From a candidate division KSB1 bacterium (GTDB taxonomy: Bacteria; Zhuqueibacterota; JdFR-76; DREG01), in the NCBI GenBank assembly GCA_022566355.1, contig JADFJB010000091.1, positions 1-20,010 of the forward strand: a stretch of 20,010 bases of DNA, in the 5' to 3' direction. Shown one piece after another: positions 9,670-12,901 of the stretch. The translations under genes were made by a program, and so were the position numbers. The first letter of the stretch is position 1. Every line of letters begins with the position of its first letter. The notes under the pieces are model-generated. The model was not told the origin of the DNA. It was given only the letters and a program-made list of their open reading frames with translations, and searched no databases.

Positions 9670-10481
9670 ATGAATAGAAAAACACTAGAAAAATTTAGGC
9701 GCACTTTAAAAGACCAACGTCAAAATATTCTTGAATGGCTTGATAAAGATTCAAATCATTTGGCTCAACTTTTTGGCAAAGATAGGATTAACACAAAATT
9801 CCCGATTTCTCCAAAAAAATTACAAAAAATATCAGACATCAATAGTGCAATTGTTCAAATTGACAAAAGTAATTTCGGACAATGCAAACTCTGTACTGGC
9901 GAGGTTGAAACCGAGCGATTAGTGTTCAATTTTACCGAAGATATTTGCCTTGATCATTATACGGAATCTCAAAAACGCGACCTCGAAAATGACCCTGAAT
10001 TAGCAGCTAAAGTACATCGGAATTTGTTGCCATCAACCGTACCGGTTATCCAGGGAATTGAAATTGCAGCCCATTCTGAGCCGGCCGGAATTATTGGTGA
10101 GGACTATTATGATTTTTTTTGTTTCCAAAATAATATGCAGGGTTTGGTTATTGCGGATGTTTTGGGCAAGGGGCTGCCTGCCAGCATGTTAATGTCAAAT
10201 CTGCAGGCATCACTAAGAATACTTGGTCCTGAAAATGATGAAATAGAGAAAACAGCCACTCGGTTAATTCTGGTGATTTATTTTTACTATATACATATGG
10301 CTTGGTGGAAGCTAGAAATCAGGCAAAAGAAGAGTTCGGTGCAGATCGATTGGTTGAATATATAAAATCTCATTCTCGTGATTCAGCATCTGATTTCTTG
10401 GAAGGATTGAAAGTTAAAATCACTGATTTTTCTCGTCGTTTATATGATGATCTTACAATCTTAATCATAAAAATTAAATAG
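9670..10481 (+). pseudogene. DksA/TraR-type zinc finger fused to SpoIIE-type phosphatase, internally deleted
   Basis: The first 231 codons encode an N-terminal helical part, a DksA/TraR-like zinc finger (C72-x2-C75-x17-C93-x2-H96), and then the front of a PP2C/SpoIIE serine phosphatase: KVHRNLLPSTVP, PAGIIGEDYYDFF (D145) and VIADVLGKGLPASMLMSNL (D163), which hold the metal-binding aspartates. After TATRL (about codon 199) the frame is lost. In another frame, from 10269 to the TAG at 10479-10481, the C-terminal end of the same domain appears: SGDLFLLYTYGLVEARNQ through RRLYDDLTILIIKIK. Roughly 75 codons of the domain's middle (the 'fvTl-f-g...GH-P' part) are missing. In the remaining YTDG motif the metal-binding Asp is Tyr. 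Intact homologues would be partner-switch phosphatases acting on anti-sigma-factor antagonists. A GAGG ribosome site precedes the ATG. It is non-functional as a phosphatase. Confidence 0.85.
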
Positions 10482-11823: not shown

Positions 11824-12690
11824 TTATTCCATCATCTTTTTCCATTCCGCTATGGCTTCTTCATTGAATTTGACGAATTGCTCATTTTCTACTTCTTTGG
11901 CTTTTTTCATGGATAATTCTGCCGTTTTTATTGCACCTTTGTAATCTTTTAAATCAGCCTGAATTTGAGATTTTGTTCGTAAGACAAAAAACGGACCGCC
12001 ATTTAATTCTATTGCCTTATTGATCCATTCTAGAGATTTGTTTAGATCTTTACCATTATTGAAGTAGTAGCCTGCTGCTTGTTGATATAATTGGGCATTC
12101 CTCGATTGCATATCTTCCATTGCTTCATCAATATCAGCCATAATCTTGGTATCAATGTCAAATTCCATTTTGAATTCTACAACAGTGTTTTCCCAGGCCA
12201 TACATACATTAGCAGAATTTGATTTGAGATCGGTAATACTTATAGTAAATGATTCAGCTGTTTCAGAGGTGGTTTTAGAACTTATAACAAAACGAGTAAC
12301 ATCATTGGCTTCACCAGGATAACTTGCACCGCCTGTCAAATTATCACTAAGGATGATCGTCCATTCCTTTTCAGTCGGGATTGTAAAAATTGCATATTCA
12401 CCAGCTGCAACTTTATTGCCATTCAGCATGACATCTTCAGAAAACGATATTTTAGTAGATGCATTAGCTCCCGTCCGCCACACTTCATTAAAAGGCACTA
12501 ACCCACCCATTATCTTCCTCCCACGAATACTGGGACGAGAATAGTCGATTGTCACATCAGCTATTCCAACAACCTGTGTTATTGTCTGCCTGGGGCTTAA
12601 AATGGGTGTTCTTAATTGGGCCATTACCGTGCTTTCCAGTAAAGTCCCGATCAACAAACTCATAGCAAGAATGAACATCGGTCTTTTCAT
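11824..12690 (-). CDS. DUF2911-domain exported protein with TPR-like tail
   Basis: This 288-residue protein has a Sec signal peptide (MKRPMFILAMSLLIGTLL... cleaved near AQ at about 24). A DUF2911 domain follows (about 28-175) with the hallmark 'P-x-x-x-x-T-Q-x-V-G', 'I-D-Y-S-R-P-x-x-R-G-R-x-I-x-G', 'V-P-F/Y-x-E-V-W-R-T-G-A-N-x-x-T' and 'G-x-Y-A/S-I-F-T-I-P' blocks. The C-terminal 100 residues look like two to three TPR-like helical hairpins (DLNKSLEWINKAIELN, DYKGAIKTAELSMKKA). The biochemical function is unknown; the family is frequent in Bacteroidota and relatives and is periplasmic or secreted. The ATG at 12688-12690 is chosen: GGAGGTG lies just before it, and the TTG four codons upstream overlaps that site. 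Confidence 0.92.
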   Translation of the reverse strand: MKRPMFILAMSLLIGTLLESTVMAQLRTPILSPRQTITQVVGIADVTIDYSRPSIRGRKIMGGLVPFNEVWRTGANASTKISFSEDVMLNGNKVAAGEYAIFTIPTEKEWTIILSDNLTGGASYPGEANDVTRFVISSKTTSETAESFTISITDLKSNSANVCMAWENTVVEFKMEFDIDTKIMADIDEAMEDMQSRNAQLYQQAAGYYFNNGKDLNKSLEWINKAIELNGGPFFVLRTKSQIQADLKDYKGAIKTAELSMKKAKEVENEQFVKFNEEAIAEWKKMME

Positions 12691-12901
12691 AGACACCTCC
12701 AAAATTAATAAATAAATGAATAGTTAGTTTTTAATTGAATCCGGACTACACATATAGGGTTTAATTAGATTATGAAACTTTCTCAAAAAAAACAAATAAA
12801 CATTACCAATTGCATTATAATAATTTAAATGCTTAATTTCAGCTATCAAGTTTGTTGTGTTTTTAATGAAAAAAGATTTTGGACAAATATAAGAGGAAGA
12901 G

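Follow-up and report, generated by a model that had tools for sequence, protein, structure and literature searches.

The window analyzed here is a stretch of 20,010 nucleotides from a candidate division KSB1 bacterium. At 9670-10365 on its plus strand, a 231-aa open reading frame carries a DksA-type helical hairpin and zinc finger, followed by a SpoIIE phosphatase. Does this combination belong to a real gene, and if so, what would a finger of the DksA type do on a phosphatase?

A broken fusion gene in the window

Residues 1-103 of the translated frame (9670-9978, plus strand, as are the other parts of this gene) make up a DksA-like N-terminal module, a short helical hairpin with a zinc finger of the form C-x2-C-x17-C-x2-H. 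The four ligands are Cys72, Cys75, Cys93 and His96, encoded within 9883-9957. Residues 1-96 match the NCBIfam dksA profile TIGR02420 with an E value of 1.3e-7 and 32 bits, against a curated equivalog cut-off of 115.5. A predicted linker helix (alpha-0) at 9964-10032 leads from the finger to the phosphatase and has LLP at its end. The first half of the SpoIIE/PPM phosphatase domain occupies 10033-10266. It keeps the DVLGKG motif and reads GED for GGD; the Pfam SpoIIE match covers residues 158-199 and, at 22.9 bits (E 9.1e-5), stays under the cut-off of 25.

The remainder of the phosphatase is disrupted. When the intact orthologue L054 was used as the tblastn query, its residues 1-192 aligned to 9670-10266 in one frame and its residues 265-334 aligned to 10263-10472 in a different frame. 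About 72 codons, equivalent to L054 residues 193-264, are deleted and the frame changes near 10263. The remnant of the C-terminus (10263-10481) ends in a TAG stop at 10479-10481, and the metal-binding Asp of its YTDG motif (D276) is replaced by Tyr, giving YTYG. With the deletion, the frame change and the D276 substitution, the window copy lacks a complete SpoIIE/PPM (PF07228) catalytic domain. An assembly error is unlikely to be the sole source of the break, as the deletion and the frame change coincide with two catalytic-motif substitutions. A chance motif is ruled out by the profile matches, the fold and the orthologues: other proteins in which the domains follow in this order align across nearly the whole homologous part of the window protein at 40-53% identity. 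The window copy is a pseudogene of a real, single-copy, stand-alone gene family.

The differences between the window and L054 fall on the codon positions as 0.32/0.31/0.68. This bias indicates that most of the divergence arose under selection, and thus that the inactivation was probably recent. The persisting bias, together with 199 open initial codons and intact finger ligands, could also be read as the mark of a living copy, in which a 231-residue product retains a DksA-like head that acts without a phosphatase. We regard this as very improbable. The bias is mostly older than the damage, the leftover phosphatase half would probably not form a PPM fold, and a second damaged copy in the same phylum (L067, in genome G024) points to decay.

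The head is related to DksA

Profiles place the head among the DksA relatives, at scores that stay below most curated cut-offs. Intact members reach 18-37 bits with TIGR02420 and none attains the cut-off of 115.5. One member, L084, scores 31.4 bits with the Pfam DksA/TraR finger (zf-dskA_traR), above its cut-off of 24.9, and the other members fall below it. A profile search of the PDB returned the DksA structure 1tjl with an E value of 7.9e-8. The Bacillus YteA-type profile TIGR02890 is the best DksA-type NCBIfam match of the subfamily B member L080 (E 5.6e-12), whereas the family differs from YteA-type proteins in being fused to a phosphatase and in scoring far under the cut-off of 134.4 bits.

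Residues 1-113 of L054 were modelled with AlphaFold2 without templates (pLDDT 82). The top 8 Foldseek hits of this model were all DksA, from E. coli, P. aeruginosa, C. trachomatis and A. tumefaciens, with probabilities of 0.99-1.00 and E values of 5.9e-4 to 2e-2. In a second structure comparison, DksA structures had Z scores of 9-10, except for the last hit at 7.3, and other helical proteins reached at most 6.7; a Z of 9-10 is by itself modest for helical models, and the DksA hits are distinguished by covering nearly the whole module. By profile and predicted fold, the head is a member of the zf-dskA_traR/DksA-like fold superfamily. It shares with DksA the C-x2-C-x17-C-x2-(C/H) finger fold, a helical hairpin before it and a helix after it. 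In contrast with DksA, the hairpin is about 40-60 residues shorter, the DxxDxA tip and the ppGpp residues are lost, the fourth ligand is His rather than Cys, and a phosphatase is attached.

An earlier note, made from the letters of the window, had described a dead copy of a DksA/TraR-related finger fused to a partner-switch-type phosphatase. Each part of that description holds: the kinship of the finger in the TIGR02420, Pfam and 1tjl matches and the predicted fold, the fusion in the TIGR02420 and SpoIIE matches within one reading frame, and the death of the copy in the deletion, the frame change, the loss of the YTDG Asp and the change of GGD to GED. The modelled N-terminal module of the orthologue also matches DksA structures, as seen in the AlphaFold2 and Foldseek results.

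Intact relatives in two phyla

Twenty-one places in the window's own genome match the query, and the finger is covered by none of the other 20; the own-genome search with the window query found no second fusion copy. Two other DksA-type proteins are encoded there, both stand-alone. This genome is rich in partner-switch-type signalling, with 21 matches to STAS and about 20 to SpoIIE-type phosphatases.

The fusion is present in 11 of 82 genomes sampled from the window's phylum, the window included (KSB1/Caldithrix-type MAGs). Named records matching the same profile come from KSB1, Caldithrix and 'Bacteroidota bacterium' MAGs and from one 'Ignavibacteriae bacterium' (L058). Among sampled genomes of the phylum of L058, a finger-bearing fusion was found in 15 of 395, and in its class in 35 of 294, always as one copy per genome. 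The functional paralogues expected by the earlier note thus turned out to be orthologues in other genomes: intact relatives occur in dozens of them, and no further copy is present in the own genome.

The family consists of two subfamilies. Members of subfamily A are about 340 aa long with the first Cys near residue 65, and those of subfamily B are about 325 aa long with the first Cys near residue 55. Intact members match SpoIIE (PF07228) with E values of 1e-41 to 1e-51, and their catalytic Asp residues are invariant. The four zinc ligands are kept across a set of 40 members, with a Tyr in L067 as the sole exception; in this set L067 is damaged, and the sequences of L068 and L150 are broken by a gap in the assembly or probably by the end of a contig. 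For the pair L074/L075, dN/dS is 0.036; the finger module alone gives 0.035. The finger of the pair L056/L025 gave 0.41 from 3 changes, the pair being too close to judge the finger. Judged from the L074/L075 ratio and the conserved residues, the fusion is under selection in intact members. The damaged copy L067/L027 (G024:C3:149190-149774) is decaying, with the first zinc Cys changed to Tyr, helix 2 partly deleted and a C-terminal frame change; fusion copies are intact in G036, G048 and G053, which belong to the same genus as G024.

In a tree of phosphatase domains from 36 fusion and 61 non-fusion proteins, those of the fusion form one clade with a support of 99/96. This suggests that the fusion probably arose once within the sample. 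Members of both phyla interleave in subfamily A, a pattern that could come from an ancient origin followed by losses or from horizontal transfer. A tblastn search of 72,556 plasmid records yielded no match spanning most of the query; the hits were partial, several annotated as TraR/DksA and one as SpoIIE. A partial literature search found no paper describing the fusion, although the combination may already be on record in domain databases.

A fixed spacing between finger and linker

The full-length AlphaFold2 model of L054 (pLDDT 81) has a PPM domain that matches SiaA, Rv1364c and RssB. The comparison with SiaA-PP2C gave a Z score of 26.1 over 239 residues with an rmsd of 3.0, and that with RssB a Z score of 22.0 over 228 residues with an rmsd of 2.8. 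Both alignments begin at residue 91, inside the linker helix. The modelled helix spans residues 92-112 of the orthologue and starts three residues past the last zinc ligand. From the model and the structure alignment, the family has a helical linker of the RsbU/RssB type that ends at LLP before the PPM domain.

The distance from the last zinc ligand, His, to the Pro of LLP is exactly 25 residues in all 40 members. Unlike this spacing, the hairpin length varies between and within the subfamilies, and subfamily B is only 32-38% identical to the subfamily A reference in the finger module. The distance from LLP to the catalytic Asp is 24, as it also is in 54 non-fusion phosphatases, and is therefore uninformative; only the finger-to-LLP spacing is specific to the family. 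RsbU, P. aeruginosa RssB and SiaA share with the family the alpha-0 linker ending in LLP and a PPM domain with identical catalytic motifs. The difference lies in the head, which is a four-helix dimerisation domain in RsbU, a response-receiver domain in RssB (PMC12143880) and a DksA-like zinc finger here.

Gene neighbourhood

The surroundings of the fusion were inspected at 19 loci, up to 12.7 kb each, by reading the starts of the open reading frames, without profiles; none of the adjacent genes was recognized as encoding a STAS protein or an anti-sigma kinase. STAS domains were searched in four genomes, the window's own and three others. None of the STAS matches of the own genome lies on the window contig, and in the other three no match lies less than 30 kb from the fusion within the sequence covered. 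An operon with a STAS or anti-sigma kinase gene was thus rejected for lack of any adjacent one in the 19 neighbourhoods and in the four-genome search. Nor was a neighbour gene found that is conserved across the family as a candidate partner.

Some neighbours recur locally when identified by eye. In L118 and L120 of subfamily B, a histidyl-tRNA synthetase-like gene immediately precedes the fusion on the same strand. An alanine racemase-like gene is divergently upstream of the fusion in L114, L115 and L116. M16-type peptidase-like genes adjoin the fusion in L054, L107 and L108, from two phyla and in differing orientations, which may be chance. The window (11824-12702) and the closest orthologue, L022 (2233-3105), each have a DUF2911-like gene in the vicinity of the fusion, in different relative orientations.

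Does the head still act on RNA polymerase?

When 25 members are aligned to E. coli DksA, the entire coiled-coil tip region is missing, and with it the DxxDxA motif at the tip. The residues ahead of the first Cys number 50-71 in the family versus 113 in E. coli DksA. Three strings resembling DxxDxA occur among the 40 members, all in helix 2 and 17 residues before the first Cys. The ppGpp site 2 of DksA is formed by R91, L95, K98, R129 and K139 (PMC7676912). All 40 members have Asp or Asn in place of R129 and a hydrophobic or aromatic residue (Leu, Met, Tyr or Phe) in place of K139. At the K98 position, 26 of them carry an acidic residue (Asp or Glu) and only 5 a basic one (Lys or Arg). R91, like K98 and K139, is not kept, and L95 is kept in subfamily B only. 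DksA homologues without such features do not behave like DksA (PMC9239242). With the tip missing and the ppGpp residues lost, a role as a switch of the phosphatase is more likely for the finger than one as an RNA-polymerase effector, and these alignments indicate that the family probably does not act in the secondary channel in the manner of DksA.

Could the finger nevertheless dock on the rim helices, where the secondary channel opens, with the phosphatase tethered to or gated by RNA polymerase? The predicted fold of the head is that of DksA, and an Arg aligned by position with DksA R125 and TraR R48, a rim-helix contact (PMC9239242), is kept in 31/40 members. This Arg, however, may belong to the general finger consensus, and the short hairpin without its tip, the altered ppGpp positions and the behaviour of comparable homologues (PMC9239242) all weigh against docking, which we consider unlikely. 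More doubtful still is the fuller version, in which the head of intact members binds RNA polymerase without the tip and the phosphatase, placed on or gated by the polymerase, couples occupancy directly to sigma-factor partner switching. The earlier note had proposed that relatives might connect RNA polymerase or stringent-response status to partner switching. That link is unsupported, given the absent tip, the ppGpp residues lost or reversed in charge, and the lack of recognized STAS or anti-sigma kinase neighbours at 19 loci.

A putative regulatory head on the phosphatase

Phosphatases of the RsbU type switch on as the linker orders into a coiled coil and dimerises the PPM domains, and their heads are proposed to be exchangeable (PMC12143880). 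In combination with this mechanism, the 25-residue register that stays constant despite the variation of the hairpin points to the finger module as a regulatory head, though the fixed distance could alternatively be plain inheritance. We give somewhat better than an even chance to the following reading. The window holds a pseudogene of a family in which a DksA-derived CCCH head sits on the alpha-0 linker of an RsbU/RssB-type PPM (SpoIIE) phosphatase, and the head of intact members controls the phosphatase, probably without any DksA-like action in the secondary channel. The finger would be a repurposed head joined to the linker helix, and its folding or zinc state would be passed on to the linker. 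The head may thereby order or disorder a linker-mediated phosphatase dimer, by analogy with RsbT acting on RsbU. DksA itself has been described as a thiol-based sensor (PMC4815678), which makes the zinc or thiol/redox state of the finger the likeliest input by analogy. The presumed substrate would be the phosphorylated form of a STAS anti-anti-sigma protein whose gene lies at another site in the genome; STAS proteins are substrates of PPM phosphatases (PMC11418112).

The head may instead be a structural or dimerisation module only, with the signal coming from a partner protein that binds the hairpin or the linker. RsbU offers the precedent, since its N-terminus is a helical dimerisation domain and its partner RsbT binds across that domain and the linker (PMC12143880), and the zinc site is perhaps needed just for folding. 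Yet no neighbour gene is conserved family-wide as a partner candidate, and a purely structural module would not need the invariant CCCH set, even if stability could account for it. We view this alternative as somewhat unlikely and retain the regulatory head, with a putative zinc or thiol input, as the preferred reading.

Implications

Among PPM phosphatases that start stress responses, the sensing head is the main difference from one to another. The type of phosphatase described here is already known, and the novelty is the new head. A DksA-derived zinc finger in that role was not mentioned in the literature searched. The family illustrates how a domain of an RNA-polymerase effector can be reused as a signalling module.
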